35,386 nucleotides of DNA from a virus: positions 1 through 35,386 of the IMG/VR virus record IMGVR_UViG_3300033141_003454. The stretch is one strand, 5' to 3'. The notes beneath the pieces are model-generated. The model had not been told where the DNA came from. It worked only from the letters and a program-made list of their open reading frames with translations, and ran no database searches. Within the stretch, counting starts at the first letter, position 1. Each line of letters begins with the position of its first letter. A program made the position numbers and the translations under genes. Below are positions 3,538 through 35,108 of this stretch, one piece after another.

Positions 3538-3549
3538 TCATATTGACGG

Positions 3550-3577: not shown

Positions 3578-3592
3578 TCCTAAGGAGAGAGT

Positions 3593-3874: not shown

Positions 3875-3895
3875 GGCCGAGGGCAGGAGGAAGTC

Positions 3896-5026: not shown

Positions 5027-5070
5027 GCGCCAGTGGCGCGGTCGTAGTGTTCCTCTGAGGAGAAGAGACA

Positions 5071-6000
5071 ATGAGTGTTGCACCAGCAGCCGGATATCCG
5101 CAATATGCGGACTCAGACATTGCCTATATCCCCCAGATGTACGCCACTACGACATTGGTTAAGTACTACGCCAAAAGTGCGGTGACCGCCATCACGAACA
5201 CCAAGTATGAAGGCGAAATCCGTGACGCTGGCGATAAGGTGATTATTCGGACCCGTCCGAGTATCACCATTCGCGATTACAAGAAGGGACAGAAGCTGGA
5301 GAAAGAAACACCAGAGAGCGCTCCAGTCACTCTCCTGATCGATAAAGCGAAGTACTATGACTTCGTCGTAGACGACGTAGACAGCAAGCAGGCGGATATA
5401 GTGCTGTCATCCGAGTTCACGGATGACGCGAGTGAGCAGATGAGGATTGCGATCGACACTGACGTGTTGGGATCAATCTACGCAGATGCTGATTCGTATA
5501 ACCAGGGACAGTCGGCGGGACGCATCTCGCAGGACCTGAACCTGGGAGTGAACGGGACACCTTTATTGGTGACCAAGCAAAACGTGATCGAGGTTCTCAC
5601 GTTGGTCGGTACGGTTATGGACGAGTACAATGTTCCGGAAGAGAATCGGAAGATTGTTGTACCCGCCTGGTTCCGTTACCTGATCATGAACTCGGACCTC
5701 AAGAATGCCAGTATAACTGGCGATGGCACGTCCATTGTTCGCAATGGCCGTGTTGGTGATGTCGATCGACTCACACTCTTCATGAGCAATCTGTTGAGCG
5801 TGGTCACAGACGGAACCGATCGGGTGACGAACATCATCGCCTGCCAGATGGACGCGATCACGTACGCGGCTCAGCTCGTCAAGAACGAGACGCTGCGCGC
5901 GGCTGACACCTTCGGGCGTGAGTATCGTGGTCTGAATGTCTATGGCTACAAGGCAGTCAAGCCTCAGGGTTTGGTCTGGCTCTACGCCATGAAGGGCTGA
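5071..6000 (+). CDS. Major capsid (coat) protein
   Basis: A 309-aa protein with a strong ribosome-binding site (gaggagaagag) before ATG 5071. It follows the scaffold gene and has the size and feel of an HK97-fold coat protein: an N-terminal arm ending at a helix (LVKYYAKSAVTAITNTKYEG), a beta-strand pair that reads as the E-loop (GDKVIIRTRPSITIRDYKKG), a long spine-helix region, a central segment with VPAWFRYLIMNS, and a C-terminal strand (FGREYRGLNVYGYKAVKPQG) typical of the P-domain. Coat proteins of this type are usually the most expressed phage product. A G/C hairpin follows the stop codon, and a weak hairpin precedes the ribosome-binding site at 5027-5039. Confidence 0.83.
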   Translation: MSVAPAAGYPQYADSDIAYIPQMYATTTLVKYYAKSAVTAITNTKYEGEIRDAGDKVIIRTRPSITIRDYKKGQKLEKETPESAPVTLLIDKAKYYDFVVDDVDSKQADIVLSSEFTDDASEQMRIAIDTDVLGSIYADADSYNQGQSAGRISQDLNLGVNGTPLLVTKQNVIEVLTLVGTVMDEYNVPEENRKIVVPAWFRYLIMNSDLKNASITGDGTSIVRNGRVGDVDRLTLFMSNLLSVVTDGTDRVTNIIACQMDAITYAAQLVKNETLRAADTFGREYRGLNVYGYKAVKPQGLVWLYAMKG

Positions 6001-15870: not shown

Positions 15871-16077
15871 ATGGCAAAGAAGAAGATAGATATACTGGCC
15901 AAGATGAGCAGGCACCAGGATGTCACCTTCAAGGTGCCCCTGAAGTTTGCTGTATTGCTTATTGCTTTGGCCAAAGGGAATGAACTGGCCAAGCCGTATC
16001 ATCAGAATCTTCTCGACATGCAACGACAGATCGCTAAACAGTTAAAGACTGGAACGGAGGATCCCCATGGCGCTTAA
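15871..16077 (+). CDS. Very small hypothetical protein
   Basis: A 68-aa protein starting MAKKKIDILAKMSRHQDVTF. A mildly hydrophobic helix lies at residues 22-36 (PLKFAVLLIALAKG), followed by an amphipathic helix. Its last 11 bases overlap the start of the 708-aa gene, which is a sign of translational coupling. The hydrophobic stretch is short for a membrane anchor. No family was recognised. Confidence 0.55.
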   Translation: MAKKKIDILAKMSRHQDVTFKVPLKFAVLLIALAKGNELAKPYHQNLLDMQRQIAKQLKTGTEDPHGA

Positions 16078-18193
16078 CGCAGAACCTGCATTGACACTGG
16101 AAGAGGAGGAGCGGAGCCAGCAGCAGAAGAATGCCGTCCGTGCCTCAGACGCGAGGATGAAGAAGCCACCAGCGCCCGAGCGATCGCCGGCGACTGTTCG
16201 GAATTTAGCCAGAGCCGAAAAGGTCTTGGCGAAGCCGAAGGTGCAACCTGAGTATTCCGCAAAGCTTTCTGCAAAGGCGAAACTAAATGCAGAGGGCGGA
16301 GCATTGCCTCCAGGAACTCCGCCACCTAAAGCAAAGATGCAGATCTTAACCCCAGCCAAAGGTACGCCGCAAGGTAAACGTCCGGCTCCGGTTCCTACTG
16401 GCGTAAGAACTACTCACACCGTTGAGGGCAAGACGGCGCTACAGAGAGATGCGCAGAAGCGGAAGGATTGGCATGCCGAGCAGGCTGCCAAAGGTAAGCG
16501 CGGGGTGTCTGCAAGTCGCATCATGGCTGAGGAGCGTCTCCGGAAGGGTCCCTCGAAGGTCCAGCAGATGCAAGAGCGTGGAGTAAGCGCGCGCCAGGCC
16601 AGTCGACCTGGGTATATTTCTACCCGTGGGGGTAAGTCCTGGAGGAAGGCATCTCCGCGTGAGCTCTCCAAACAGAGAGCGAAGACTCCGATCGAGCAGC
16701 AGGCAGAGAGAGACTGGGAGGTTGTGGCCGGCGGCGTGAGATCTCAGGTGGGACGAGCTGCTACATTGGACGAATACAACGCCCAGTTTGAAGAGATGAA
16801 GTCTCGAGCCGGCGAAGGTGCGTCCTTTGCGGCCGCGCAGATCCAGAAGGACTACATCCAGATGATGCCGCCAGATGTTCGTGTTGAATATGAACGTGGA
16901 CAGGAGGACATCCAGGCCGAACGTGAATCACAACAGGCCGCCCAGAAGTTGAAGATCCTGACCATCGCCGGCGAGGAAGCCGCCATCTCCTCAGAGGAAG
17001 AAGGACGAGGGATGAAGCTCAGGACGATCCAGAGGAAGAAGGCGAAGGCAGAGACTGGTGGCAGACTGGAAGCCCAGGAGACTGCATCTGCGGATTATGC
17101 TGAGGCGCGCAGGAAGCGGGAGCGCGAAGCAATTCTGAACAGGGAGGCGACCAAAGAGGAATCTGCTGGCAATTTGGCTGAAGCGCAGCAGAAGAGAGAG
17201 GACGCCGCTCGAGAGGCCAGCGCAGCCGCCGCCCTGGAGCTTCGTGCTAAGAATGCGGAACGCACTGCCGAGGTTGCTGGCGCGGAACGTCACGCCGCGA
17301 TCGGGGTAGAGACTGGCCTCGTTGAAGAAGAAGGGGCCCTCAAGCAGCTCAAGAAGAAACGTGAGCTGAAGACTGCAGAGGAACTCGCCGTCGCAGAAGC
17401 TGACACGGCCGAAGCTACGGAGCGCGCGACTATTCGGAAGGAGAAGAATCTTCTCAAGGAGAAGGCTGCCCTTGCTCTATCGAAAGCGGAAGAGCTTCGG
17501 GCGATCGAAGACGCTCTTCCTCCTAGCAGGAGGGAGAAGGCGGCCACTGCCCGTAGTGGATTCGAGAGTTCGCGGAAGATTGCAGAGTCACTCGATGCCC
17601 AGGCCCGGAAGATGATCGAGCAGCATGGCAAGGTTGTCCAGGGCAAACTCATCATCATACCCGAAGAGCAGCTGCGCGAGATTGAGTCGCGACGCGACCA
17701 GGCATATTCTGACATGAAGTGGTACCAGGATCAGTATTCTGAAGCCTCGGGTCTTGACTCGCCGCCCTCGCTCGCACCAGATAAGGCAAAAACAATTAAC
17801 CAGTCAGACCAACAGAGAGCCGCCTCCATTAGTTACGAGAAAATGCTCGCCAAAGCAACAGGCAAGGGGAAGTTTGCGTCTGAGGCGTATCTTTCAAAAG
17901 GGGAAGCTTCGAGAAAGAACCTTGATGAGGAGTGGGCGAAGACTGGTCTACCGAAGGAAGATGCTCCGCATGCGGTTAGAACCTATAGGGCGCCCAGAGA
18001 CGTACCTCCCTCAGCTGAGAAGATTGAGGCTAAGCCGAAGGAAGATCCCATGGGCATGATGCTGGAGGCATCTCTGAATGCGTATAAGGCTGGCAAGCTG
18101 AGCAACGCAAAGCTCAAGAGGGTCATGGATACACTGGGGGTTCCTGCACCTGAGTGGCTGACGGCCGAGATAGAAGGGGCTGCAGTCCAGTAA
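16067..18193 (+). CDS. Large coiled-coil protein, probable internal virion protein
   Basis: A 708-aa hydrophilic protein starting at ATG 16067 after a GGAGG, overlapping the previous gene by 11 bases. Residues 1-120 are Pro/Ala/Lys-rich and disordered. Residues 130-260 are basic. Residues 275-570 are almost continuous helix rich in Ala, Glu, Lys and Arg (for example EARRKREREAILNREATKEE), a long coiled coil. The C-terminus has a compact helical end (KLKRVMDTLGVPAPEWL). Its position directly before a giant polyvalent protein matches internal-core gene pairs of short-tailed phages, where one partner is structural and the other is ejected. No catalytic motif is visible. Confidence 0.6.
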   Translation: MALNAEPALTLEEEERSQQQKNAVRASDARMKKPPAPERSPATVRNLARAEKVLAKPKVQPEYSAKLSAKAKLNAEGGALPPGTPPPKAKMQILTPAKGTPQGKRPAPVPTGVRTTHTVEGKTALQRDAQKRKDWHAEQAAKGKRGVSASRIMAEERLRKGPSKVQQMQERGVSARQASRPGYISTRGGKSWRKASPRELSKQRAKTPIEQQAERDWEVVAGGVRSQVGRAATLDEYNAQFEEMKSRAGEGASFAAAQIQKDYIQMMPPDVRVEYERGQEDIQAERESQQAAQKLKILTIAGEEAAISSEEEGRGMKLRTIQRKKAKAETGGRLEAQETASADYAEARRKREREAILNREATKEESAGNLAEAQQKREDAAREASAAAALELRAKNAERTAEVAGAERHAAIGVETGLVEEEGALKQLKKKRELKTAEELAVAEADTAEATERATIRKEKNLLKEKAALALSKAEELRAIEDALPPSRREKAATARSGFESSRKIAESLDAQARKMIEQHGKVVQGKLIIIPEEQLREIESRRDQAYSDMKWYQDQYSEASGLDSPPSLAPDKAKTINQSDQQRAASISYEKMLAKATGKGKFASEAYLSKGEASRKNLDEEWAKTGLPKEDAPHAVRTYRAPRDVPPSAEKIEAKPKEDPMGMMLEASLNAYKAGKLSNAKLKRVMDTLGVPAPEWLTAEIEGAAVQ

Positions 18194-18203: not shown

Positions 18204-21200
18204 ATGGATACTGATACTTTTCTTATGGAGCTGAACAAGACCCATGAGGATCCATCTCTCATGGATCCTGGTGGAGAGTTCGTTCCTGAGGAGACTGAAG
18301 AGCTTCCGGTACCTGAACTTCGTATCGAGGGACCTCCGCCTGAGCCTGAGCCGGTCCCAACCCCTGAGCCCGAGATTCTTGAACAACCCGCGGCCGCACC
18401 TCCGCCTGTTGCTCCTCTTGAGTTGGCCCCTGAGAAGATCGAGAAACCTACACCGACGATGGAATCGCTTGTTTCCCCCGAGACCAGTCAGAAGTTTCTG
18501 GCTGAGCTGGAAATGATGAAGCCAGCTGGCGCCACAAAGAAAGGTGTTCAACCGATATCGCCAGAGTTCGATCCGGAGGGAATCGATTATGATTACAAGA
18601 GCGCTGAAGAAGTTGGGATGAAGCCAGACGAGACTGGACATTGGGCCAGCCGCCGACCATATACGGATGAGGAATCAGAAGCCCTTGGTCTACCGCCGGG
18701 ATCCGGATTGATTCTGAAGGGGAAATCCCACGAGACCTGGAACAAAACCTTAGAGGGTGAGGCGTCGGCCGGCTATGTAGTAGTCAGGGGTGAAGGCAAT
18801 CGCTACTACTCGGTTCCCGCTCCTCAGGCAGACGACAAGATGGGCGTCCTTGAGCAATGGAAGAGGCGTGGTGAGCAGACGCTTGGAGATCCAGAGGCAA
18901 GGGGTTTCCAGTTCTTGCCAGGATCCTCATGGGAAGAGCAATCATATAGAGCCGCCACAGTAAGTCTGGGCAATGAAGATACTGGCAGAAAAAGACTGCA
19001 TGAAATGAGCGATACCCAGTTGTATAAAATGGCCAGACACATGTGGCATCCCCTCGAATCTTTCAAATCCTTCTTTACTGGATCATCTAAAGAACAGAGT
19101 GAAAGACGTCGTCTTCCGAAATTCATAAGAAACCCAGCGCCATTAACAATGATTCCTGAAGAGAGAAGAGCGAAGGGGATCAGGCGGCTGTGGGCTGATG
19201 TAAAAGAGCGGAAGGTAACTAGTTATACACGCGAAGAGCGGAAGCGGATTGAGGATGCGTTGTTCGCCAGGATGAACAAGCGCCTGGTCACAATGGAGAA
19301 ATTCAAGACGGAGGAGGAACGCAGAGGGAAGACCATTCTGAGCCGTGCTGTTATCGGGGCAGCTGAGATGATTCCGTATATGGAGAACATCGCTCTTGGA
19401 CCGACTATGTTTATCGGTGGAGAAACGCCAGCTCGAGCTTCGGAAATGATGGCCGGCGAGGTTGCCCTGGACGAGGAAGGGAAAGCGAGGCTGACGAAGC
19501 CAGGAGTAGAGGCCGGCGAGGCTTACACAAAGGGCGTCATCGGATCCGCAGCCACCTTCTACATTGAGAAATTTCTGGGCAGACAACTTGGTAAAGTAGC
19601 CGGGAAGGTAGGGGGCAGGTTCTTACCGGCCGGCTTCACGACGGGGATCAAGAATCTAAAGGGCAAGATCCCATTGCTTCCGGTCTTTGAGAAGATCAAC
19701 AAACTAACTGGATTCGGCAGCCTGACGGAAGAGATATTTGTAGAGGAATATGCTGAAGCCCTCGTCAACGCGATCGGCAACCTCCAGAATGATTACGAGT
19801 CCGGGAATCTACCACCCCTCCTGGAGAGGTTGAGCGACGCCCATAAGAACTTCATCAAGGCTGTTCCGGATATGGCCCTGGCCATGATGTTTCTCCGGGG
19901 ATCCCAGCATGCCGCCAGTATGCCGGCGTATCTCGCGGATAGGGGTCATGATAAACTCGACCAGACTCTTAATGCGTTAGGAGTTCCATACAATCCGAGA
20001 GCAACCAAGAAGACGAAGTCTTCGTTAATCGAGAAAGCATTTTCTGACCTCGTAAGCGCCGGCGAGGCGAAGACCCTCCACGATTCCGTGAATGATGCGA
20101 TCACCGAAGAGATCGAGGCAATATACGGTGTGAAGGAAGCTGAGGAAGAGGTCGCGCCAGTGAAACCTGTGAAGGAAGCAGCCGAGAAACCTGAGGCCGC
20201 CCCGGCACCTAAGGAACCTTCTCCAGCAGAAGCAATAGACATTAACACTTTATCTGAAACTACCAGAGAAGATATTAAATACGCCACTGATCTGTGGCCA
20301 GACGAAGAAGCGGGGCCAAAGGCAGATGAGGTATACTGGGTCAGAACAGAGAAGCCAACATCTGAATTGATGAGTGTATTCTCCGAGGATGCGGATCCTG
20401 TCCAAACCATGATAGAAGCAGGTTATGACATAGAAGGTCTTGCTGAAGATATTGCCCAAAACGGGTTAGAGAATCCTATTGTTGTAGGTGACACAATCGA
20501 GGGGCAGCATAGAATCCTTGCCGCCAACATTGCTGGGATGGATACTCTTCCTGTAATCGAAATGAAGCATAAAGAAAAGGAGGCACCAGATGCCAAAACT
20601 GAAGAAGGAGAACCGGTACAATTATATCGTCCGGAGGAAGGGGGCGTCAGACCAGGAGAACAAGGACCTGGCGAAGAGGGGGTTCGACCGGACGTTAAGG
20701 GAGAGGTCGGAACGACGGAAGAGCTTGTAGCCGTCCTTAACGATATAACTCCAGAATCCATCACCGTAAAACAGTTCGGCAAACAGCTGGCCATTGTGAC
20801 TGAGAGCGGTGAGGCGATCGCGGTGCGAAGAATGGCGCCACCCGCGCCAGATACACCAGGTGCGAAAGCCTGGTTTGCCAAATCGATTATTGGGGATGAC
20901 CGCGGCGCCACCTTTGATCATCCGGACGATGGTCTTCCTGTTACAATCCCAGAAGAGTATGAGGACTTCGTTGCGCTCGCTCCGGAGGAACAGGCGAGGA
21001 TCCTCTCGGCCTATGCACCAGCAGCTGCCCACGACGTGGAGACGGACAATTATGTGGTTGAGGAACGGTCTTTCCTGAAACCTAAAGTTCACCTCGAAGA
21101 GATCTTCCACTCCGGTGTCGGCCGGCTTAGTGCAGATTCCCAGTCAGACATCAATGAGAAGTATGGAGACGAGGAGTCGGCGTACTCGAGCGAAGCGTAC

Positions 21201-24200
21201 AAGACTGGCAATTTCAGTGACGATCCCGCTGACCAGGCTCTCAAGTCAATTCATGACGGATCCGTGTACAGGCGAAACGTGTTGGATGATCCGGACACTC
21301 CGACGGCCCCTGAGCCCACTCTTACAGTAACGCCCCAGGACGACAGTGAGACGCCCATCAGCACGTATGCTGTCCGCAAGGGGATCCGGAAGCCGCCATG
21401 GCAGACGTTGGACCTGCAGAGCCCTGAAGCGAAAACGCTCGCGCGCAGGATGTCGATAGAATTTGAGATGATGGATATCCTTATCGGCCCACTCGATCGC
21501 ACGAAGGCATTCGACTACAAAGGAACCAAGTCGATGGATCCTTCTGACCTGGCCATGGCCTTCAACGAAGCACTCAGGGATGGCACCATTCAGCGACTTA
21601 TGGATCCCGGGGTACCGGCTGAGGATCTGGCGGCCGACATGGGACTGAAGGGGAAGAAAAAGAAAGCATTCTTAGAAGAGGTGCGGATCCTCCGTACTGC
21701 GCCGTTATATGATACACCGGGAGTGCGATCGGTACTGGGAGACAATACGAAGACGCATATGGGGACCGGCTTCGCAATCTTCACCTGCGCTCCGACGGCG
21801 CCATGCAAGGAATGTTATGCTGCTCGATCGCAGTTGATGTCGTCTATCCCTGCGGTCAGGAAGCACATCCGGAATACTTTCCATATCTTTGTGGATCCTA
21901 TTGGCTGGGGGAAGCGGGTGGCGCTCGAGGCTGCCAGGCAGAATCGTCACGTCATGCCGTTCATCAGGTTGAACGATGTTGGAGATCTGACGGGTGGCCA
22001 GATGTTGAAGGGATTCAACGCGGTAGCCGAGAACTCTGATCGGCCGGTGCATGTGTTCAGTCGGCACCACGATATGCTTGCTCGCTTGAAGGGTACCGCC
22101 CAGTCACCGTTCTTCAAGATGGGCAGCCTGGACAGAGATCTCTATACCTTCTACGGTCTCCCATACTTGCTCGACAACATGAAGGAGCGCTCGATCGCGA
22201 ATGCCTGGCTCTACACGGATCCGGCTGAGATCCCAGCGATGGAGACATTGATGGACGAGGATGAACTCCCCCTGATCCTGGCGGCATCTGTAAAGCTGCA
22301 CAACGGTCTGCCGGCGGACATGAAGGCATACAGTTGTCCGTGCGATTCCGGCTCCCGCCTTGCTGTCAAATCTTGCATCCAGTGTGCCCTGAGCAACAAG
22401 GGGTGTTACATGGGCTTCTTCAATAAGGGCATCGATGCAGACGGCCGGATGTGGAATCTTATGGATCGCGATCGTCCTGATGAGATCACACCGGTTGCCT
22501 TTAATGTCACTGGCGATTCATGGGAGGGTACCGAACCTGGTCAGAACAAGCGGCCAGCTGGTCAGCCGAGGATCCCCGCGAACAAGGCGTGGGCGAATGT
22601 TACGGCTGAGGTCCTCAAAATGAAAGCCAAGGCCATCATCGCGAACATCCGACATTATGAGAACGGCTACAAGAAGGATATCGTCCTGAAGGATCCCCGC
22701 TTCCCGGATACGGTTGTCAGGACGAAATCGAAACCGCGCGCGCTCAAGTATGTGAAGAGACTACGTGCCGCGGCCGGCGATGCCCTGGGGGGGACCTTCT
22801 GGCTGCCAGGTGGTGTGGATCCCAATGAGGACGTGGCCTACCGGGATACGGTTCCGATAACGAGTCCTCGAGCGATCAGTCGACTCAGGAACGAGTCACA
22901 GGACGCTACGGATCCAGAGCGTTATGCTGTGGAACGAGTCTCTCCGGAGGCGACGGTTGTTCCAGATCTTGACGTGGCAGAGGAGAGGGTGGCAACGCCA
23001 GCGGAGAAAGCGAAATCTGCAGAGCTCGGCCGGCAGGCTTCAATGGGGCCTGCAGCTGACACTCCGGCAGCCACCGTGACCGATGCTGATATCACGAAGT
23101 ACGCCGTCAGCCGGAATGTGGATCCAGAGAAGGCCAGGGCATCAATGAAGAAGGACCTGGAAGATATTGTCGCCTCGTCCACTGATGCGTATGAGAAACA
23201 AGAAAGATATGAATCGGTTCGGGGCGCGTTCATCTTTGGAGGAGCGGAACGGTGGCAGGCCGCCTTCAAGTACGGGGACACTGTCTCGAGTATTGTCCCT
23301 GAGCTTGTTAAGGATCGTAATGTTGCCTTCGATATCCGCGGGTATGCGATAAATAATCCTCGAGACTTTGCCGCCTTGTTGATGCCCTTGAGGTCCCCCT
23401 ACTTCGAGACCATGAAGGTTGCCTTCCTTGATAGGAAGAATCGGGTCATCAAGAGTAACGTCGTCACCGTTGGCATACTGGATGCCAGCCTGATACATGC
23501 CAGGGAGATGATGACGGGAATGCCAGAGAACACGGCCGGCGTAGTGATCTCCCACAATCATCCCAGCGGAGATCCTAGTCCAAGCGCCGAAGATATCCGA
23601 ATCACAAAAGTGATCGTCAAGGCATTCGAGGATGCCGGTATCAACGTCCAGGACCATGTCATCACTAATGGCGGCACTTTCTTCTCGTTCCGCGAGGAGG
23701 CCACTGTCGCGTTCCCAGAGATCCCTCAGTCCGCAAAAGAGAAGAAGCTTGTCCGGCGCAAGATAAAAGAACCGGCTGTGATGCCCGGCACGGAAGCGTG
23801 GGAGACTGTTCGTCGTAGCGAACTACCAATAATTATGACTCCAGACGATATCGCCAAGATGGCCAAGGGTCTTCGCCAGGCGAATCCCCTGATGGGACAT
23901 GCGATCTACTTGAACACCAAGAATAGGGTAGTAGGGGTAGAGCGGATGCCTCTCGATATTTCCATGAAAGACTTTCGTAAGCGCATCACCCTCGCCGTGT
24001 CAAGGGAAGGGGCTAGCGGGTATGTTCTCGACTGGCCGGCTCCGAACGACGACATGGCTTTTAATGTCGGCAGGGAAGCAATCAACCTGAGCAGCAGCTT
24101 AGACGTTAAGATCTATGATATGGCAACAGCGAACTCCAGGTCGACAAGGGAAGAGGGGATCCTGGTGTTCATGGAGAAGCCCGTAGAGTATACGACCGGC

Positions 24201-27200
24201 GAAGAAAAGAAGAAGGCCCAGGAGGTCCGTGAAGCTGGCAGAGAGACTGAGACGGCGCCCACGGAAGCCCAGAAGGAAGCCGGGAACTATGCCAAGGGCA
24301 AGCTCGCCCTGCAGGGGATGAACATCAGCATTGAGAATCCAAAGGGATCTACTCGCAGCGGTGTGGATCCTGGCGGACAGAAATGGGAGCAGCAGCTGCA
24401 GAACAGCTACGGGTACATCAAGAGGACCGAGGGCGCGGACGGGGATCAGATCGATGTCTTCATTAATGATGAGAACCCGATCAGTGAGACGGTCTTCGTG
24501 GTCAACCAGGTCAACCCAAAGACGGCGGAATTTGATGAGCACAAGGTCATGCTCGGGTTTGAGAATCTCAACGACGCCACGCAGGCATATCTTTCCAACT
24601 ACCAGGAAGGATGGCAGGGCCTGGGCTCGATCGACGCCATGAGCATCGATGAGTTCAAGGAATGGATCAAGTCTGACAAACCAAAGAACAGTCGGCCGGC
24701 AGTGAAGCCTGAAGCACAGGACGCGAGAAGGAACCTGGAGATAGAGCTCAGGTATTCTGTCGAGAGACGCAGTGACCAGCCGCGGGATCTCACGCCAGAC
24801 GAAAGGAATGAGATCGATGCGGTCCTCGCCACTGACAATCTTGACGCCACGGCCGGCGCCCTGGCCTTCGGCGAGAAGAACGTTGGTGATGAACCGCTTG
24901 CGGTCACCTTGGTCGACATGAGAGAGGATCTCCTCAAGCAGACTGATGCGCTCGTTGCGGATCCTGCGAAGATGCAGGAAGCCCTGGACAACGTCGTGAA
25001 GGCCCAGCTGCTCCGTGAAGCTGTTGAAGTGATCCATGGCGTGAAGTATGCGGTTGAACGGCGGACCGTATCATTACCGACTACGGTTGGCCCGAACCCC
25101 GGCACAACCACCACGAAGGTAACAATGTCGCATCCGGACTTCAAGAAGGCGAAGAGTGGAGATCTCGAGGCAGCTGACAGATTTGTGAGAGCCGCAACGA
25201 AACCTGGTCTTATGGTCTGGGCAAAAGCCAACATCAAGTCAGACGATGTGATCATGCCGATCCTGGCAGAAGAGGCGTCTGGCAGGAATAAGATTCCCCT
25301 GGCGTTTGCCAATTATCTATCTGAGGAAACTGGAGCAGACTATACCGCTGATATCGTGCAGAGCGTAAGAGCAATGCACACAGGCAAGGGGGCTATGTAC
25401 AGGATGTTGCAGCGTCCCGCATTTGATGGTCCCGTAGTAGCCGGGAAGAGGTACTGGATTGTCGATGATCACTTCACCATGGGCGGCACAATCATTGAGG
25501 CAGCAAACCATATTGTCCAGAATGGTGGGGAAGTTGCGGGTATTGCCACTATTTCCAAGAGCAATACAGCACCACCAAATTTAACAATTGACACGGCCCA
25601 GGCTGAAGAGGTAAGATCCCGCTATGGTAACACCATCCTCCAAGAGTTCAACATTGACCCCGCCGCCCTCACGGCAAGCGAGGGTCGGTACCTTCTCACC
25701 TTCGTATCGGATGAATCCCTCCGAAAGAGACTCGCTAAGGTCCGAGATGAAATCGGACAAACAGAAGCTCAAGGCGAGATCTTCCCGCGGCAAGTAGCGG
25801 AATCAGCCGTCCGCTACGCCATAGCGAGGGCCGAGAAAGGTGTCCTGTTCCATGTCACAACCAGGGACAACCTGCAGAAGATCAGAAAAGAAGGTCTCAA
25901 GAATTTCCAGACTACAAACTGGGTAGACGCCCAAGGCCAGCGCCAGGGGAAAGGCGAGATCTTTGCCTTTGAGAGGGTCGAAGACGCGCTCCGATGGGGG
26001 TTCAAGATGGACTGGGATCTCTTCAAGGGCAACCAGGAAGGTGACGTTGTTCTCGTTAAGATGAGGCGCGGCACCGACAAGTGGGACGTCGACACGGCGT
26101 CACCCCTCGAGCAGGCCGGCGCCAAGGGCCAATGGCTCAAGAGGTACCAGGGCGTACCAGTCGAAGACATTCTCGCAGATGTTGAATTTAACAAAGACAT
26201 GATGCCCATCATGCGAAAGCTGACAGCCGCGGAAGTGGGAGATATCCCTGTAGAAGATGTATTCCCGGAGAACACCCGCTATGCTGTCGAACAACAAGAA
26301 GCGCAGCCACCGGCCGAGACTCTTCCTCCGGAACAGGAAGAGGTACCACCGATTTGGAAATCAGGAATGTATGAGACAGTGGAGAATAAACTCCCTGGCT
26401 CGGTCACAGGACCGCAGTTGGTCAGCTTGCTAGAGTCATGGGCCCGGAAGGGACAATTAAAACGCGCAGAGCTAGACGATTCAGGCATCCTCGACTGGGC
26501 CAGGGAGACTAAAGGGAAGGTTTCAAAGGCAGACGTTCTTGCTGAGCTCGAGCGCAGGACGATCGAAGTCGGCGAGGTCATGAAGGGTGCTGATATTGAG
26601 GAGAATATCTCCAATGAACTCAACCTTGAACTTGAAGGGCAGGACATTCCTTCCATGCCGCTAGAATGGCTCCGTGTTGCTGACGACTTAACCGAAGCCG
26701 CCCAAGAGTATCAACGTGATGGTAATACAGAACTTGCTGAAAAATACTTTAGAATGGCAGAAGAAGCCAATATACATGCAGAAGGAATAGCGGATGGAAC
26801 TACAGCGGATGGAACGAAATTTGCCCAATGGCAAGTACCTGGTGGAGAGAATTACAAAGAGCTGCTGCTCACATTACCCGTTACCAAGGAAGCCATTCCG
26901 GATCCCAATATCGCGACCTTCGAGGAGATGGGGAAGAAGCATTACCCTGACTCCGAGATCCGGATTGTTGATGTGAGTGAATCGACATCGCAAAAGCGAT
27001 ACGATATGTATGTGGACGACAAGTTGAAGTGGACGGGTCTGGCCGGCGATTATGATCCACAGGTTCACGGGACGCGTCGCGGATTTACCGACGGTCACTG
27101 GGATGAACCAAACGTCCTTGCCCATATAAGGTTTGATGAGAGAACTACACCGGGAGATATTACAGGGATGGAGGTTAGGAAGACGACCGGTGGGCGTCCA

Positions 27201-30200
27201 TGGAAAGTATTTGTGAAGGGCGAGAAGGTTCATGCGAGTTCATGGCCAACCCAGGCGGCCGCCGAGAATGCAATCAAAGGCGCTGTTTCAAGAACGCCAG
27301 GTAAGAAGATGCTCTTCATCGAGGAGATCCAGAGCGACTGGCACCAACAGGGAAGGCGCAGAGGTTACGCGGCTGCGCCTGGCGTGAAACCACCTATCAC
27401 TGACCTTGACATTCCGGAGATAAGAAAGCTCCGACAGCTCGAGAAGGAATACAATCAAAGCCAGGCTGAGGCAGCATGGAATGATTATGCCGCATATCGG
27501 CTAAACGTAGTACTGCCTATCCTCGATAAGAAACTCGAAGAGGTGGGACTGGGGGCTGCATATCGTTTTCACGAAGATATCGATACCTGGGTAATTATGG
27601 AAAAATCTCCGGAGGGTGGAGGTGTACATGCTTCTGACGGAAAGACGCCCCAAGAAGCATATGATAATTTAGAGATTGGACAGACGGCTCTTGGCCCATC
27701 CAACCGCGGTGTTCCCGACGCCCCATTCAAGAAGAACTGGCACGAGCTCGCGATGAAGCGGATGTTCAGGCATGCGGTAGACAACGGTTTCGATTCCGTC
27801 GGATGGACAACGGGTCAACAGCAAGCCGACAGGTACAATCTGAGCAATTATATTGATGCTATAGATTCTAGATACGATCCAATCCGAGAAGTTTACAATA
27901 TCACTATGTATATGAAAGCGTCGGGTGATACGAACACCACTACTGTAGAGGCTGACAAGTTGGCAGAAACGGTAGGAAAAGACCTCGCCGGCAAAATGAT
28001 TAAAGATGTAGGGCAGCCTTTTGAAAAACTTAAAGACTTCGTTAAAGAACTGCCGTTGACTTTCGACCAGAAGACGCTCCTAATTAGAGAGGCTCTTCTG
28101 CCAATAGCAAATATGAGCGACGAAACGGTTGGCCTGTACAAGGGTCTATCCCCAGATCAACAAAAAAAGATCAAGCAACTTTCTACGGCTGACAGAGAGG
28201 GTAGGACACAAAAGACTTATAGGGGCCTCGACCTCAAGGTTGGCGGCGAGGGTATGAAATCTTTCTACGATAAGTTCCTGCCGGCATTCGCCAAGAAGTA
28301 CACGAAGAAGTGGGGCGGCAAGGTTTCTGAAGAGACCCTTGCGCCATCAGGTGATGAGGTGCGGGTTCTGATAACAACGGATGGCTATACCGTTGAACAT
28401 GGCAGTGAGTCACATGAGTTCGATAACGAGAAAGATGCAGACGATTATGCCGCCGATGTCCGCTCTGGAGAAACCGTCCACTCCCTCGCCATCACCCCAC
28501 AGATGCGAGAGTCCATTAAGACTGAGGCTCAGCCAGCATATGCCATCCGCCGGCGAGAGCCCGAGACTCGCGAAGAGCTGAGGGAACGCATCAAGGCGGT
28601 ACCTGGTGTGGATCCTGAGGCGATGGAGAAGGTTGTTGAGCATATCTCCAAGGTTCAGAAGCTGACGCCCGAACAACAGGAAGCAGAGAAGCAGAGGCTC
28701 CTGGCGCTTGTGCGGCGCCGCGAGCCCACAGAGCCCGTTAAATTTGCTGAGACTCTTTCAGCTGCAGCCAAGGCAGAGAGGGAAGAGAGGATCCGCGAGG
28801 AAGAAGACTTCGAGGAACAATTCTTCGAGGAGCAGGACGAGATCCAGGCGCAATTACAGGAAGAAGACGAGAGCAAGATCCGCGAGGATGAGCATGAGGC
28901 GTACATCATGGAGACCGCGAAAGCTTCCGACGAGAAAGCCCGGCTGCAGGAGAAGATAAAGGACGTCCGCCGGCAGAGGGATATTAAGATCGCAGAGCAG
29001 AAGGCCTTCCACCGCGAACAGAAGCAGAGGATGCGCCAGGTGTGGACAGACCGGCAGGCCCGTCGTGAGTTCATCTGGGACTACGCGAAGAAGCATTTGG
29101 AACCAGGCGATCGCGAGAAGGTCCTCAATCAGATCAAGGCCGCGGCGCCGACCGATCTCAGTATGCAGCGCGCGATCGAGCGCATCGATCGGCTCGAGGA
29201 ACAGTACGCCAAGAAGAAGCAGGAGAACCGCGTCAAGAAGCTGATGAAGATTGTGAATCGTAGGCTCAAGGCGAAACAGGGCAAGAACGTCCTCCGCGTG
29301 GAGTACGCGGATCCGCTGCGAGCTATGGTCGACGCGATGGATCCCACGAAGCCTGCAGCCAAGACGATCGCCGATATCAGTAAGACGAAGAAGTTCTTTG
29401 ATGATCATCCGGAACTGAGAGAGGATCTGCCTCCCCGGATCCAGGCCAGGATCGAACGCCTGCAGAAGCGCCCGGTTGGCACCATGTCGATGGACGAGCT
29501 GCAGGAGACAGAGATGGCAATCCTCACGATGCTGAAGCAGAACGATCTCAAGGGGAAATTCATCGGCCGCGGCCGCTGGCGCAACATCGAGGATCCTGCT
29601 CGGGAGATCATCGAGAAGATGCAGATTCATAAACGCGTCGGTGGCACACTGATGACCAGGACGCCCCTCGAGCCTGGAGCAGCTCCGGAGCGCCGCGGAT
29701 TAGGGAAGGTCCTGGTCGACTGGTATGACGACATCGATCTCATGGCCAGGATCATGGATGCCGAAGAAGATGGACCCGCTTCCCAGATCTTCTATGGCCA
29801 ACTGAACAAGGCTGAGGCTCAGCGCCTCGAGGATGTTCAAGAACTCAAAGCTTCCTTCCGCGCATCTCTGCAGAGGAGAGACGCAGATGTTGGCAAGGAG
29901 CTGTATAAGATGAGTGATGTCCTCCCTGGACCCGTTGAGGTGAAGGGAAGGGATCCGGAGACAGGAGAAGAAATCACAACGGCGATCGAGGAGATCCAGG
30001 TACCTGAAACTCGTGACGATCGCGACCGCCTGGTTTCATCAAAGAGGACCCTGCGCCTGACTCCAGCCCAGAAGATATCCCTGCTGCTTACCGCCAGGGA
30101 TCCGGATGGATGGAGATCCCTGTCTCAGAGTTCTGAAAACGAGGTCCTCCGATCGCAGACCGAGAAACTTCTTCGCCGCGGCCGCACTACGCGCGTGACG

Positions 30201-31847
30201 ATCGGGAAGATCACGTCAGCTGACATCAAGGCACTGGATGAGAGTTTGACGGAGCGTGAGCGGTCAGTCCTGGAGGCAGCTTCCGAGTTCTTCAACGTCG
30301 ACAGCAAGCGCCTGGTCAACGAGGCCAGCAGAGATCTAGAAGGGTACGACATTGCCGGGCAGGATAACTACTTCCCGAAGATCACCGTCAAAGAATTTAT
30401 CCGCCGTGGCCAGCGAGGCGCTCTTCCTGGCGCGACCTTCCAGCAGCAGACGCTGGAGGACCTGGGGATCCTCAAGGAGAGGCAGCCAGGTGCGAGAGCT
30501 CCTGTTCTCATCAAGGACATCTTCCAGGTCCTCGAGGAGCACATCGCTAAGATCTCAGCGTACCACGCATACGCGGCGCCGCTCCGTCAGATCAAGAGTG
30601 TCTTCAACTGGGTAGATAAGACCCCAGGTGGCGGCCGCATCAGCCTGGAGAATGAGATGCGGAAGGCCTATGGACCTGAATGGGTCAACAACCTGAAGGA
30701 CCTGATCGGCCGCGTTGAGGTCCAGAGCCACCAGCTGGATCCATTTGAGCACGTCATGGAGTGGCTACGCAGCCGCACAGTGGGCGCGATCCTTACAGGG
30801 AGACCCACGGTATGGGCTAAGCAGGCGATCTCGTATCCTCTGGTTGCTATGGAATTGGGGTATGGGAACATGGCCCGATCGCTACTTCCCCTGAGGGGCG
30901 ACCGTGGCGCGATCGCGGACAAGGTTGTCAGCCAGAGTCCGGAAGTGGTCAACAGACTTGTTCACGGCCGGATCTCTCGAGACATTGGAGACTATGTCGG
31001 CCGACACTTCATGCTGGACCTCCTGGCTGACGATAAGCCGTCGACCGAGAAACTCTCGACCGGAGTGCGAGTTGGTGACAGGATTGCGATCCGGAGGACC
31101 GCACTGGCTGCTTACTTCAAGGCTCAGGAAGATCTGGGGGCCGACGCCAGCGAGGAAGAACTGATGAAGCGATCGCGGTACTGGCTCGAGAGGGCGATCA
31201 AGAGAACGCAGCCAGCATGGCACCTGAAGGATCTCACCGTGATGGGAGGATCCCCGAGCGTGGCCAAGAGATGGTTCTACACCTTCCGGACGTTCAGAGA
31301 CAAGGTGATCAAGATGCAGCGCATGGCGGTCCTCAGATATTCAGAGAGCGATCGGTCGACCGGTGAGAAGGTGAAGATGGCGCGCGACCTGGTGTACATC
31401 AATCTCGTGGCGTTTCTCCTGGCCGCCCTGGTCAATGAAATCTGGAACAAGCTCCGGAAGCGGAAGAAGAAATACATGAAAGAGAAGACGACCCAGGACA
31501 AGGCGGTCGACCTGGCGCTGAGGACCTCGGACAATCTTCTTGGCAACTACTTCCTGATCGGTGAAGGCGCGAGTCTCATCGTGAGGCAGATGGCGAAGAA
31601 GAGAAACTACCGCGGGGACGTGTTGAGATCTCCGGTGGTTGAAACGATGAACGATCTCCTCGAGATTGGCCCGGATGTTGTCCAGGCGATCCAGTACAAA
31701 GCTGGCGAAGACGAGGAGAAGTTTGAAGCAGCCATGTGGAGACTCGCAGAAAAGGCCAATCAGACGGCCGGACGCGCAATAGGCGTTCCTTTAGAGGGTA
31801 TATGGGATATGACGGAAACTGTGACAGGTGGGCTGGAAGAAGAGTGA
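18204..31847 (+). CDS. Giant multidomain polyvalent protein (4547 aa), probably injected
   Basis: One uninterrupted 13.6-kb reading frame. The order is: a disordered Pro/Glu-rich N-terminus (1-110); a short polyvalent-type motif (G-L-I-L-K-G-K-S-H-E-T-W, about 165-180); hydrophobic helices (about 381-410 and 550-566); a ParB-like domain (675-797); a gp88-like Cys-cluster domain (about 1172-1430); a RadC-like JAMM domain (1700-1830); a probable degenerate second JAB (1872-1994); an inorganic-pyrophosphatase-like domain (2026-2165); a phosphoribosyltransferase (2285-2530); an ART/KptA-like domain (2545-2685); a long polyvalent module (2712-3442); a coiled coil (3450-3720); and a C-terminal module with membrane helices (3835-4547). 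This is the architecture of phage polyvalent proteins such as P1 DarB relatives, which are packaged and enter the cell with DNA. A role in counter-defence or host take-over is inferred from that family, not shown here. Eight copies of a Y-[A/S]-[V/I] motif mark domain borders. Confidence 0.85.
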   Translation: MDTDTFLMELNKTHEDPSLMDPGGEFVPEETEELPVPELRIEGPPPEPEPVPTPEPEILEQPAAAPPPVAPLELAPEKIEKPTPTMESLVSPETSQKFLAELEMMKPAGATKKGVQPISPEFDPEGIDYDYKSAEEVGMKPDETGHWASRRPYTDEESEALGLPPGSGLILKGKSHETWNKTLEGEASAGYVVVRGEGNRYYSVPAPQADDKMGVLEQWKRRGEQTLGDPEARGFQFLPGSSWEEQSYRAATVSLGNEDTGRKRLHEMSDTQLYKMARHMWHPLESFKSFFTGSSKEQSERRRLPKFIRNPAPLTMIPEERRAKGIRRLWADVKERKVTSYTREERKRIEDALFARMNKRLVTMEKFKTEEERRGKTILSRAVIGAAEMIPYMENIALGPTMFIGGETPARASEMMAGEVALDEEGKARLTKPGVEAGEAYTKGVIGSAATFYIEKFLGRQLGKVAGKVGGRFLPAGFTTGIKNLKGKIPLLPVFEKINKLTGFGSLTEEIFVEEYAEALVNAIGNLQNDYESGNLPPLLERLSDAHKNFIKAVPDMALAMMFLRGSQHAASMPAYLADRGHDKLDQTLNALGVPYNPRATKKTKSSLIEKAFSDLVSAGEAKTLHDSVNDAITEEIEAIYGVKEAEEEVAPVKPVKEAAEKPEAAPAPKEPSPAEAIDINTLSETTREDIKYATDLWPDEEAGPKADEVYWVRTEKPTSELMSVFSEDADPVQTMIEAGYDIEGLAEDIAQNGLENPIVVGDTIEGQHRILAANIAGMDTLPVIEMKHKEKEAPDAKTEEGEPVQLYRPEEGGVRPGEQGPGEEGVRPDVKGEVGTTEELVAVLNDITPESITVKQFGKQLAIVTESGEAIAVRRMAPPAPDTPGAKAWFAKSIIGDDRGATFDHPDDGLPVTIPEEYEDFVALAPEEQARILSAYAPAAAHDVETDNYVVEERSFLKPKVHLEEIFHSGVGRLSADSQSDINEKYGDEESAYSSEAYKTGNFSDDPADQALKSIHDGSVYRRNVLDDPDTPTAPEPTLTVTPQDDSETPISTYAVRKGIRKPPWQTLDLQSPEAKTLARRMSIEFEMMDILIGPLDRTKAFDYKGTKSMDPSDLAMAFNEALRDGTIQRLMDPGVPAEDLAADMGLKGKKKKAFLEEVRILRTAPLYDTPGVRSVLGDNTKTHMGTGFAIFTCAPTAPCKECYAARSQLMSSIPAVRKHIRNTFHIFVDPIGWGKRVALEAARQNRHVMPFIRLNDVGDLTGGQMLKGFNAVAENSDRPVHVFSRHHDMLARLKGTAQSPFFKMGSLDRDLYTFYGLPYLLDNMKERSIANAWLYTDPAEIPAMETLMDEDELPLILAASVKLHNGLPADMKAYSCPCDSGSRLAVKSCIQCALSNKGCYMGFFNKGIDADGRMWNLMDRDRPDEITPVAFNVTGDSWEGTEPGQNKRPAGQPRIPANKAWANVTAEVLKMKAKAIIANIRHYENGYKKDIVLKDPRFPDTVVRTKSKPRALKYVKRLRAAAGDALGGTFWLPGGVDPNEDVAYRDTVPITSPRAISRLRNESQDATDPERYAVERVSPEATVVPDLDVAEERVATPAEKAKSAELGRQASMGPAADTPAATVTDADITKYAVSRNVDPEKARASMKKDLEDIVASSTDAYEKQERYESVRGAFIFGGAERWQAAFKYGDTVSSIVPELVKDRNVAFDIRGYAINNPRDFAALLMPLRSPYFETMKVAFLDRKNRVIKSNVVTVGILDASLIHAREMMTGMPENTAGVVISHNHPSGDPSPSAEDIRITKVIVKAFEDAGINVQDHVITNGGTFFSFREEATVAFPEIPQSAKEKKLVRRKIKEPAVMPGTEAWETVRRSELPIIMTPDDIAKMAKGLRQANPLMGHAIYLNTKNRVVGVERMPLDISMKDFRKRITLAVSREGASGYVLDWPAPNDDMAFNVGREAINLSSSLDVKIYDMATANSRSTREEGILVFMEKPVEYTTGEEKKKAQEVREAGRETETAPTEAQKEAGNYAKGKLALQGMNISIENPKGSTRSGVDPGGQKWEQQLQNSYGYIKRTEGADGDQIDVFINDENPISETVFVVNQVNPKTAEFDEHKVMLGFENLNDATQAYLSNYQEGWQGLGSIDAMSIDEFKEWIKSDKPKNSRPAVKPEAQDARRNLEIELRYSVERRSDQPRDLTPDERNEIDAVLATDNLDATAGALAFGEKNVGDEPLAVTLVDMREDLLKQTDALVADPAKMQEALDNVVKAQLLREAVEVIHGVKYAVERRTVSLPTTVGPNPGTTTTKVTMSHPDFKKAKSGDLEAADRFVRAATKPGLMVWAKANIKSDDVIMPILAEEASGRNKIPLAFANYLSEETGADYTADIVQSVRAMHTGKGAMYRMLQRPAFDGPVVAGKRYWIVDDHFTMGGTIIEAANHIVQNGGEVAGIATISKSNTAPPNLTIDTAQAEEVRSRYGNTILQEFNIDPAALTASEGRYLLTFVSDESLRKRLAKVRDEIGQTEAQGEIFPRQVAESAVRYAIARAEKGVLFHVTTRDNLQKIRKEGLKNFQTTNWVDAQGQRQGKGEIFAFERVEDALRWGFKMDWDLFKGNQEGDVVLVKMRRGTDKWDVDTASPLEQAGAKGQWLKRYQGVPVEDILADVEFNKDMMPIMRKLTAAEVGDIPVEDVFPENTRYAVEQQEAQPPAETLPPEQEEVPPIWKSGMYETVENKLPGSVTGPQLVSLLESWARKGQLKRAELDDSGILDWARETKGKVSKADVLAELERRTIEVGEVMKGADIEENISNELNLELEGQDIPSMPLEWLRVADDLTEAAQEYQRDGNTELAEKYFRMAEEANIHAEGIADGTTADGTKFAQWQVPGGENYKELLLTLPVTKEAIPDPNIATFEEMGKKHYPDSEIRIVDVSESTSQKRYDMYVDDKLKWTGLAGDYDPQVHGTRRGFTDGHWDEPNVLAHIRFDERTTPGDITGMEVRKTTGGRPWKVFVKGEKVHASSWPTQAAAENAIKGAVSRTPGKKMLFIEEIQSDWHQQGRRRGYAAAPGVKPPITDLDIPEIRKLRQLEKEYNQSQAEAAWNDYAAYRLNVVLPILDKKLEEVGLGAAYRFHEDIDTWVIMEKSPEGGGVHASDGKTPQEAYDNLEIGQTALGPSNRGVPDAPFKKNWHELAMKRMFRHAVDNGFDSVGWTTGQQQADRYNLSNYIDAIDSRYDPIREVYNITMYMKASGDTNTTTVEADKLAETVGKDLAGKMIKDVGQPFEKLKDFVKELPLTFDQKTLLIREALLPIANMSDETVGLYKGLSPDQQKKIKQLSTADREGRTQKTYRGLDLKVGGEGMKSFYDKFLPAFAKKYTKKWGGKVSEETLAPSGDEVRVLITTDGYTVEHGSESHEFDNEKDADDYAADVRSGETVHSLAITPQMRESIKTEAQPAYAIRRREPETREELRERIKAVPGVDPEAMEKVVEHISKVQKLTPEQQEAEKQRLLALVRRREPTEPVKFAETLSAAAKAEREERIREEEDFEEQFFEEQDEIQAQLQEEDESKIREDEHEAYIMETAKASDEKARLQEKIKDVRRQRDIKIAEQKAFHREQKQRMRQVWTDRQARREFIWDYAKKHLEPGDREKVLNQIKAAAPTDLSMQRAIERIDRLEEQYAKKKQENRVKKLMKIVNRRLKAKQGKNVLRVEYADPLRAMVDAMDPTKPAAKTIADISKTKKFFDDHPELREDLPPRIQARIERLQKRPVGTMSMDELQETEMAILTMLKQNDLKGKFIGRGRWRNIEDPAREIIEKMQIHKRVGGTLMTRTPLEPGAAPERRGLGKVLVDWYDDIDLMARIMDAEEDGPASQIFYGQLNKAEAQRLEDVQELKASFRASLQRRDADVGKELYKMSDVLPGPVEVKGRDPETGEEITTAIEEIQVPETRDDRDRLVSSKRTLRLTPAQKISLLLTARDPDGWRSLSQSSENEVLRSQTEKLLRRGRTTRVTIGKITSADIKALDESLTERERSVLEAASEFFNVDSKRLVNEASRDLEGYDIAGQDNYFPKITVKEFIRRGQRGALPGATFQQQTLEDLGILKERQPGARAPVLIKDIFQVLEEHIAKISAYHAYAAPLRQIKSVFNWVDKTPGGGRISLENEMRKAYGPEWVNNLKDLIGRVEVQSHQLDPFEHVMEWLRSRTVGAILTGRPTVWAKQAISYPLVAMELGYGNMARSLLPLRGDRGAIADKVVSQSPEVVNRLVHGRISRDIGDYVGRHFMLDLLADDKPSTEKLSTGVRVGDRIAIRRTALAAYFKAQEDLGADASEEELMKRSRYWLERAIKRTQPAWHLKDLTVMGGSPSVAKRWFYTFRTFRDKVIKMQRMAVLRYSESDRSTGEKVKMARDLVYINLVAFLLAALVNEIWNKLRKRKKKYMKEKTTQDKAVDLALRTSDNLLGNYFLIGEGASLIVRQMAKKRNYRGDVLRSPVVETMNDLLEIGPDVVQAIQYKAGEDEEKFEAAMWRLAEKANQTAGRAIGVPLEGIWDMTETVTGGLEEE
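20226..20594 (+). other. ParB-like (ParB/sulfiredoxin fold) domain in the giant protein
   Basis: Residues 675-797 contain the strand V-Y-W-V-R, a helix (GYDIEGLAEDIAQNGLENPI) and the signature I-E-G-Q-H-R (765-770) followed by I-L-A-A-N-I-A-G, equivalent to the G-x-H-R nucleotide/nuclease motif of ParB-like proteins. Members bind CTP or act as nucleases. Which activity applies here cannot be told. Confidence 0.75.
21717..22493 (+). other. gp88-like cysteine-cluster domain in the giant protein
   Basis: Eight cysteines fall in two groups: C1195-x5-C1201-x2-C1204-Y and C1378-x-C1380-x10-C1391-x2-C1394-x6-C1401. Between them lies FIRLNDVGDLTGGQMLKGF and V-H-V-F-S-R-H. This matches my memory of the mycobacteriophage 'gene product 88' family found in polyvalent proteins. 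The cysteines could bind zinc or an iron-sulfur cluster. Biochemical function is unknown. Confidence 0.6.
23301..23693 (+). other. RadC-like JAMM (JAB/MPN+) domain in the giant protein
   Basis: H1784-x-H1786-x7-S1794-x2-D1797 is a perfect JAMM metal-binding motif inside SHNHPSGDPSPSAEDIRIT. It is preceded by the RadC-type line H-A-R-E-M-M. All metal ligands are present, so a Zn-dependent isopeptidase or peptidase-like activity is chemically possible. RadC-family members themselves have no settled function. Confidence 0.85.
23817..24185 (+). other. Probable degenerate second JAB-like domain
   Basis: Residues 1872-1994 start with L-P-I-I-M-T-P-D-D-I and continue AIYLNTKNRVVGVERMPLDI, which parallels the core strands of RadC-type JAB domains (strand, N-x-K-N-R-V, strand). 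The HxH motif is absent, so if homologous it is inactive and could be a binding or structural partner of the active copy. This is a weak call. Confidence 0.4.
24279..24698 (+). other. Inorganic-pyrophosphatase-like polyvalent domain
   Basis: Residues 2026-2165 contain ISIENPKGSTRSG, then Y-G-Y-I-K-R-T-E-G-A-D-G-D-Q-I-D-V (Y-G up to V2085) and V-F-V-V-N-Q-V. The acidic D-G-D-x-I-D-V cluster resembles the metal-binding loop of soluble inorganic pyrophosphatases. This conserved line is common in phage and conjugative-element polyvalent proteins, where the fold has been named InPase-like. Confidence 0.7.
25056..25793 (+). other. Phosphoribosyltransferase domain
   Basis: Residues 2285-2530. The PRPP-binding loop is V-D-D-H-F-T-M-G-G-T at 2420-2429, preceded by hydrophobic strand Y-W-I and followed by a helix, as in type I PRTases. 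The base-binding hood cannot be matched to a particular substrate. Confidence 0.75.
25836..26258 (+). other. ADP-ribosyltransferase/KptA-like domain
   Basis: Residues 2545-2685 start L-F-H2550-V-T-T-R-D-N-L-Q-K-I-R-K-E-G-L, the H-x-T opening of the ART/KptA fold. A G-E-I-F-A-F strand with an aromatic 'A-L-R-W-G' helix follows, then D-V-V-L-V-K-M. The fold family uses NAD+ or RNA 2'-phosphate. The third catalytic residue cannot be placed with certainty. Confidence 0.55.
26337..28529 (+). other. Large polyvalent-protein-associated module
   Basis: Residues 2712-3442 contain a well-known chain of motifs seen in phage and conjugative-element proteins: W-x-S-G near 2718, HWDEPNVLAHIRF near 2970, F-I-E-E-I-Q-S-D-W-H at 3038-3047, DAPFKKNWHELAMKRM near 3171, WTTGQQQADRYNLS near 3200, GLDLKVGGEGMKSFYDKFLP near 3341 and S-L-A-I-T-P-x-M-R-E-S near the end. 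Conserved E/D/H/W residues suggest a catalytic role that I cannot name. Confidence 0.7.
29706..31847 (+). other. C-terminal polyvalent/membrane-associated module
   Basis: Residues 3835-4547 begin L-V-D-W-Y-D-D-I-D and include Q-D-N-Y-F-P near 4055, then a helical domain and two hydrophobic segments near 4396-4414 (LVYINLVAFLLAALVNEIW) and 4443-4463. This type of C-terminus closes many giant ejected phage proteins (LPD38-like, from memory) and may insert in the cell envelope during ejection. Confidence 0.5.
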
Positions 31848-31900: not shown

Positions 31901-32260
31901 ATGAAAAGACGTATATTGAAGATGTTCTTAATTCTCGTCGTCCTGGGTGCGGCCAGGTTGGCCATTGCTCTTTACGATACAGGGTATGGCAGCCAACTCA
32001 CTGCCACCACGGTAACTGGGCGCATGTCTGGCTTCACGGCCAATATGGTTTCCGTCTACAACAACAACTCAACGAACGACTTCTTCTTTTTGCTCAACTG
32101 CTCAACCAATACTTTCAACACAAGGCTGGCGGCTGGCACTACGATCAGGGTAGCCCCTGCATCTGGCATCACATTAAACGCTGGAGGCCAAGACAGCATT
32201 GAATCTATTTGCTATGCCACTACGAACCTCACGGCCTCTTTCGACGTCGCCACCTACTAA
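31901..32260 (+). CDS. Small exported beta-rich protein
   Basis: A 119-aa protein with a strong ribosome-binding site (taggaggta). The N-terminus is a signal peptide (M-K-R-R then a hydrophobic core ILKMFLILVVLGAARLAIA) with likely cleavage after A-I-A. The mature part of about 95 residues is Thr/Asn/Ser-rich, with alternating strands (FFFLLNCSTNTFNT; R-V-A-P-A-S-G-I-T-L) and two cysteines that could form a disulfide outside the cytoplasm. It resembles small phage-encoded beta-sandwich proteins placed before fibres. It is 12 bases from the next gene. I do not recognise the family. Confidence 0.6.
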   Translation: MKRRILKMFLILVVLGAARLAIALYDTGYGSQLTATTVTGRMSGFTANMVSVYNNNSTNDFFFLLNCSTNTFNTRLAAGTTIRVAPASGITLNAGGQDSIESICYATTNLTASFDVATY

Positions 32261-34545: not shown

Positions 34546-34797
34546 ATGGGCAACGGAATCTTGACACACGAAGTAGCTGACAGCATTAAGGAAATAGACG
34601 AACTCAACCCAGCTGATGAAGACTGTCGGCAGACCGTGGGCGTTCTTGGCCGTGCTACCAAACTTGGGTTACGCCTGGGGGAAGGTGCCTGTGCGGTTTC
34701 CAAACAGAATAGAATCATGCTTGGCATCCTCCTGATTTTCACCATCAAGGCAGAAGTTCTCCCCCTCATCCTGAAGATCGCATCATTCCTGAAATGA
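34546..34797 (+). CDS. Holin-like small membrane protein
   Basis: An 83-aa protein with a strong ribosome-binding site (ggaggaggggg). Residues 1-55 are soluble and contain two cysteines. Residues 57-82 are hydrophobic (NRIMLGILLIFTIKAEVLPL then ILKIASFLK) with K and E in the middle, so the region may be one kinked or two short membrane helices. The size, the C-terminal membrane end and the overlap with a lipobox protein suggest a holin or pinholin-type protein that opens the inner membrane at lysis. An unrelated membrane role is possible. Confidence 0.45.
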   Translation: MGNGILTHEVADSIKEIDELNPADEDCRQTVGVLGRATKLGLRLGEGACAVSKQNRIMLGILLIFTIKAEVLPLILKIASFLK

Positions 34798-35108
34798 AAA
34801 TCTTCTTCCTATTCGTGCTGATCATAATGGCCGGCGGCTGTGGATCCCTCCAGGCCGGCACGAAGTGGCTGAAGTACGAGAGCGACAAACTTAAAGAAGA
34901 ACAGCGCCAGGCAGATTTCCAGTTACGAGCTGACAGGTGGGCGCTCACCTGGTTGAAGACGTGGGGCCCAATCATTGTTGCATCACTTGTTGGAATGGGC
35001 GCCACAGGGAAGCTGGGTCACAGGAAGGGCAGAAGGGACGCGATGATCCGGAGTCTTGGTATCGAAAAGAAATCTGAGAAACCGACAGGAGGTCAAGATG
35101 GCAGCTGA
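34794..35108 (+). CDS. Lipobox protein with second TM segment (unimolecular-spanin-like)
   Basis: A 104-aa protein whose ATG overlaps the previous stop (ATGA). Residues 1-15 are a lipoprotein signal (MKIFFLFVLIIMAGG) with the lipobox M-A-G-G-C; Cys16 would be lipidated in the outer membrane. Residues 22-52 form a charged helix (KYESDKLKEEQRQADFQLRA). A hydrophobic segment follows at about 56-75 (WGPIIVASLVGMGATG), then a basic tail. A lipid anchor plus a C-terminal membrane helix is the layout of unimolecular spanins such as T1 gp11. The linker of about 40 residues is short for spanning the periplasm, so the call is tentative. Confidence 0.5.
   Translation: MKIFFLFVLIIMAGGCGSLQAGTKWLKYESDKLKEEQRQADFQLRADRWALTWLKTWGPIIVASLVGMGATGKLGHRKGRRDAMIRSLGIEKKSEKPTGGQDGS

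Follow-up and report, generated by a model that had tools for sequence, protein, structure and literature searches.

The DNA analysed here (the window) is an entire IMG/VR record of 35,386 bases, available as a single metagenome contig. It contains the gene of a 4,547-aa polyvalent protein at 18204–31847, which is the final large gene of a portal–capsid–tail module. The portal, scaffold-like, major capsid protein (MCP) and head/tail genes all lie upstream; the portal protein is encoded at 30–2075 and the MCP at 5071–6000, and the scaffold-like protein (3896–5026) was assigned by a weak Pfam match and its position. The giant gene is directly preceded by the gene of a 708-aa charged protein (16067–18193) and directly followed by a 119-aa gene (31901–32260). 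All these genes, and the domains and tags described below, are on the plus strand. Among the tail genes, a 973-aa protein (8336–11257) has CBM_5_12 matches, and after the giant gene, at 34546–35108, small membrane- or lipoprotein-like genes resemble a lysis cassette. No DNA-level relatives of the window were found among phages and plasmids.

The giant frame and its genomic setting

The frame runs uninterrupted from ATG to stop and takes up 39% of the window, exactly as had been predicted from the sequence. The possibility that assembly had wrongly fused several genes into it, which the original prediction had raised, could draw on the fact that it is seen in one metagenome contig, since the independent contig G001, 99.98% identical to window 1–5988, ends before the giant gene. 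Against this, there is no stop in 13.6 kb, and the codon-position GC shows a coding-like pattern that is constant over ten successive blocks. Moreover, a 57 kb relative (G003), whose MCP and portal are 72% and 57% identical to those of the window and whose gene order is the same, has in the corresponding slot a single open frame 3,328 aa long. This homologue lies between a 719-aa and a 115-aa protein, which match the 708-aa (26%) and 119-aa (46%) neighbours in the window. Nor is the size exceptional, as related frames reach 5,410 to 5,887 aa. The one-frame homologue between the same neighbour genes makes an artefact very improbable indeed.

Some features of G003 were observed in passing. Upstream of its portal gene there is a ClpP-like protease gene (L003, 1485–2090; 4e-24), for which the window and G001 gave no counterpart. 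Its large terminase (L015, ORF from 6485) carries an intein-like insertion of about 396 residues, starting with CVSGDTEI and ending with VNGIIHN-S, which is missing from the homologue in G001. The internal repeats of the 973-aa tail protein align to the G003 homologue at several offsets. Two further frames, L017 (1,622 aa) and L018 (1,572 aa), were first taken for homologues of the giant protein and proved to be repetitive tail-fibre-like proteins.

Enzyme-like domains, backbone and an unnamed module

Three enzyme domains of disparate activity are well supported in the polypeptide, out of the seven that had been listed originally. The RadC (JAMM) domain (aa 1716–1832; 23349–23699) matches PF04002 at 4.9e-28 and has an intact HxHPxGxPxPSxxD motif. 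It is followed by a polyvalent-type InPase (aa 2021–2156; 24264–24671), also with its motif intact (PF18823, 1.7e-56), and by a phosphoribosyltransferase (PRTase) domain (aa 2308–2514; 25125–25745; phrog_22413, 8e-43), which is about 39% identical to Moraxella phage proteins and contains an intact PRPP loop, VDDHFTMGGT. The GP88 domain (aa 1193–1343; 21780–22232) is marginal: it scores 20.8 bits (4e-4) in the whole protein, under the PF17338 cut-off of 24.4, and 25.2 bits, above it, when searched as a single stretch. The ParB/Srx-like segment (aa 742–792; 20427–20579) is weak (Pfam 0.015, PHROGs 0.0028, Spo0J in the PDB 0.025) and does not match the ddrB-ParB family; its GQHRILAA motif is intact. 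Regarding the KptA/ART fold, there is only a hint, the motif LFHVTTRDNLQKIRKEGL (aa 2541–2571; 25824–25916), where about 30 residues match RNA 2'-phosphotransferase (0.004) and PF01885 (0.0026) below the cut-off; the predicted structure of the segment comprising the PRTase and this motif is poor (pLDDT 42). The seventh item, a polyvalent-associated domain, was not borne out, as no Pfam LPD family matched and the region belongs to an unnamed module described below.

As anticipated, the protein differs from the DarB type, with no Pfam match to a methylase or helicase and no [DNS]PP[YF] motif. Lytic transglycosylase and RNA polymerase domains gave no match either, and the HExxH signature of zincin metallopeptidases is absent across the 4,547 residues, whereas the G003 relative has two. 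The idea of a complete host-takeover or anti-defence kit is not supported: a defence-library search returned nothing beyond a weak JAB match, and KptA/ART was called only weakly. Nor is this set of domains unique, since RadC and InPase share a single frame in four further giant proteins, and among the structural matches to the module in BFVD are proteins whose names refer to GP88, ART-PolyVal and LPD. IMG/VR was also scanned with three parts of the protein (C-terminal, KptA-like and GP88), none of which gave a match.

Comparison with the G003 homologue delimits a common backbone made of residues 367–561, 2690–3064 and 3168–3806 and, more weakly, the C-terminus. The N-terminal segment (aa 367–561; 19302–19886) is 28.8% identical (8e-21), and the C-terminal region (aa 3948–4527; 30045–31784) is common to phrog_28077 and the G003 homologue. 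Instead of the several C-terminal membrane helices predicted originally, a single hydrophobic helix was found (aa 4392–4414; 31377–31445), which is the sole strongly hydrophobic stretch of the giant protein and is conserved in G003. LPD38 was considered as the C-terminal domain and rejected for lack of a match to PF18857, a family found in 12 of the 25 records searched. The cargo of the G003 protein is different and consists of ART-PolyVal, LPD23 and the two HExxH sites. These two relatives thus show how related phages retain the backbone while exchanging its cargo.

Such a backbone might suggest a mainly structural protein of the internal core or ejection apparatus, in the position of T7 gp16, with the backbone as a DNA conduit and the enzyme-like domains secondary or decayed. 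The conservation of the backbone and its hydrophobic helix would fit this, as would the place of the gene, which closes the virion module directly behind the gene of its 708-aa partner. We regard it as rather unlikely, because RadC, InPase, PRTase and ParB have active-site motifs that seem intact, the transglycosylase search was negative, and the exchange of cargo between relatives suggests selection on the cargo.

The central part of the backbone contains a widespread module (aa 2716–3448; 26349–28547) of about 530 conserved positions, with PGGENYKE, EEIQSDW and GQQQADRY motifs. It was found at 51 loci in IMG/VR and at least 80 in genome contigs from many phyla, in frames from about 550 to more than 5,000 aa. 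None of 42 members matched a Pfam LPD family, one of the 42 weakly matched a GNAT family, and a PDB sequence search found no relative. The structure model (pLDDT 69.5) gave nothing below E 0.001 in a Foldseek search of the PDB. By VIA-align, all matches being partial, the top row was ICL2 (Z 9.0, rmsd 3.0, 122 aligned residues), and other rows included NAT10 (Z 7.2, rmsd 3.4, 110 aligned; a second row at Z 6.8) and an insect N-acetyltransferase (Z 6.0). These model-based matches are no more than suggestive of a GNAT-like core; profile comparison did not support GNAT homology, as hhalign against 27 GNATs gave no match. The module looks new, being widespread and without a Pfam or PDB sequence match, and makes an attractive subject for studies of its structure and activity. 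Four solo proteins of 552–567 aa (L144, L145, L147 and L148), in which it stands almost alone, are encoded in gammaproteobacterial genome contigs (MAGs) and would be convenient for structure work.

Tags at the domain borders

A short tag, (R/K)-Y-A-(V/I)-x-R, marks eight domain borders of the giant protein. The copies are TYAV-RK at aa 1054 (21363–21374), RYAV-ER at 1573 (22920–22931), KYAV-SR at 1632 (23097–23108), RYSV-ER at 2183 (24750–24761), KYAV-ER at 2281 (25044–25055), RYAI-AR at 2537 (25812–25823), RYAV-EQ at 2692 (26277–26288) and AYAI-RR at 3445 (28536–28547), the last one at the end of the module. All eight lie outside the called domains (chance about 0.003 by coverage). The word [RK]Y[AS][VI], a pattern chosen post hoc, occurs six times against 0.27 expected and was never as frequent in 2,000 shuffles. 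The codons differ among the tags, which are therefore not recent DNA copies.

This class of tag was first noticed by eye in the giant protein, and later tests were anchored on other sites. In 73 proteins bearing the module, with tandem module ends excluded, further copies of the tripeptide at the module end are found in the rest of the protein 1.86 times as often as expected; when the anchors were permuted between proteins, the ratio was 0.94 ± 0.18 (0 of 5,000). Compared with ends of the "DIR(F/Y)" type in the same protein, it gave 26 identities against 7.5 ± 3.2 (0 of 20,000). When words were searched without bias, strong repeats were few (17 versus 4 in shuffles), so that the claim rests on the anchored tests. 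The spelling is uniform within the protein of each relative and different between proteins, and the tags of relatives flank Pfam domains: FAPR occurs six times in L096, where ART-PolyVal (2660–2800) lies between two copies, FSR occurs four times in L082 (Salinisphaera hydrothermalis C41B8), around PBECR1, and QFSK is the tag in L058. The giant proteins of phages Y3 and RHph_TM3_14A have no clear tag, which is thus not universal. A literature search for such tags found no relevant description; together with the unnamed module, they are the aspects of this protein that look new.

The tags bear on the question of how a multi-enzyme injected protein passes a narrow tail and then splits into working parts. 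Built-in metallopeptidases have been proposed to split such proteins (Iyer et al., PMC5512222), and here is a giant protein without an HExxH metallopeptidase yet with regular border tags. Because the tag is uniform within and different between proteins, and because no HExxH zincin is built into the protein, we propose, speculatively, that a protease acting in trans might cut the chain at the tags, freeing the domains; the tags would then give exact predicted cut sites. About even odds can be given to the tags being something other than cleavage sites, either sequence of the domain ends that intragenic recombination has spread, or tags for docking or packaging. The tag after the module is part of its conserved end, PLF(S/A/G), even in solo proteins, so part of the tag may be fold and not signal; searches of the window and of the near-identical contig G001 turned up neither a phage S78 prohead protease nor one of the ClpP type, and some phages lack tags. 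Against these alternatives, domains that are unrelated to each other are followed by tags of uniform spelling in the same protein, and the differing codons of the tags do not fit recent copying. A broader possibility, which we think less likely than not, is that giant polyvalent proteins are pre-proteins with phage-specific border tags cut in trans, their spelling co-evolving with the protease, and with the module of about 530 residues, possibly GNAT-like, as their common core. The tags would then be spelled (R/K)YA(V/I)xR here and FAPR, QFSK, FSR(R) or FRT in others, and the enzyme set might be released during maturation or entry.

A proposed role and comparison with known systems

The window phage is podovirus-like, and its giant protein joins the known class of injected polyvalent proteins and is not a DarB relative. 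It has the multiple domains and the late virion gene neighbours of phage-type polyvalent proteins, and domains, position and synteny support the earlier view of a polyvalent protein encoded with virion genes. Our preferred explanation, to which we give a probability of roughly 0.78, is that it is packaged and ejected with the DNA, with an enzyme cargo on a conserved backbone. The protein would be a late virion-associated polypeptide packaged in the head and then delivered into the cell along with the genome. The backbone (residues 367–561, about 2716–3806 and the C-terminus, including the single hydrophobic helix) would serve delivery. The cargo would comprise RadC, InPase and PRTase, probably GP88 and the ParB-like domain, and perhaps an ART/KptA fold, and would act as infection begins, with nucleotides and nucleic acids as its targets.

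T7 gp16 and the N4 vRNAP are large internal virion proteins that are presumed to be ejected. The window protein resembles them in position and presumed ejection and differs in having neither a transglycosylase nor an RNA polymerase domain. It shares with P1 DarB/DdrB the prediction of an internal, ejected, early-acting protein, but it lacks the SNF2 helicase and adenine methylase dyad that defines DarB, and its ParB-like domain is weak.

Proteins of this kind were named polyvalent by Iyer et al. 2017 (PMC5512222), whose domain list includes InPase, PRTase and RadC. The likeness to the phage-type members lies in several unlike catalytic domains carried by one polypeptide beside virion genes. 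In that survey the zincin MPTase is the commonest domain and the hub of the domain network without being obligatory, and the window protein differs from the phage-type proteins in lacking it. RadC was found there only in proteins of conjugative elements and InPase only in phage-type ones; the window protein, like the four other giant frames, departs from this by having both together.

Judged by portal and MCP, the isolate phages closest to the window are Rhizobium RHph_TM3_14A, with a 2,307-aa InPase protein in the late virion block, and its relatives; Pseudoalteromonas phage vB_Pun_Y3 is a further one by portal. Y3 has a related portal, a similar gene order and a 3,421-aa frame (WPJ21802), annotated DdrB-ParB, in the late virion block; this protein differs in the annotation of its cargo and in having no visible border tags.

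In the Burkholderia podovirus JC1, the DarB-like gp69 of 4,515 aa was detected in CsCl-purified virions by 51 unique peptides (PMC9144972). This bears on whether the window protein might instead remain unpackaged and, made late, act in the producing cell, for instance by excluding superinfection or by taking over the host at a late stage. Superinfection roles are mentioned by Iyer et al. (PMC5512222), but the virion location of gp69 and the position of the giant gene among virion genes make such a role quite improbable. As for gp69 itself and the DarB-like protein of Bcep22, the window protein differs from them in having no methylase or helicase, while gp69 matches a helicase of the HepA type. 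JC1 and the window phage are alike in their podovirus character and in the size of the two proteins, each encoded by the final large gene of its virion module and ahead of the lysis genes, and JC1 gp69 is the best precedent for packaging of the giant protein.
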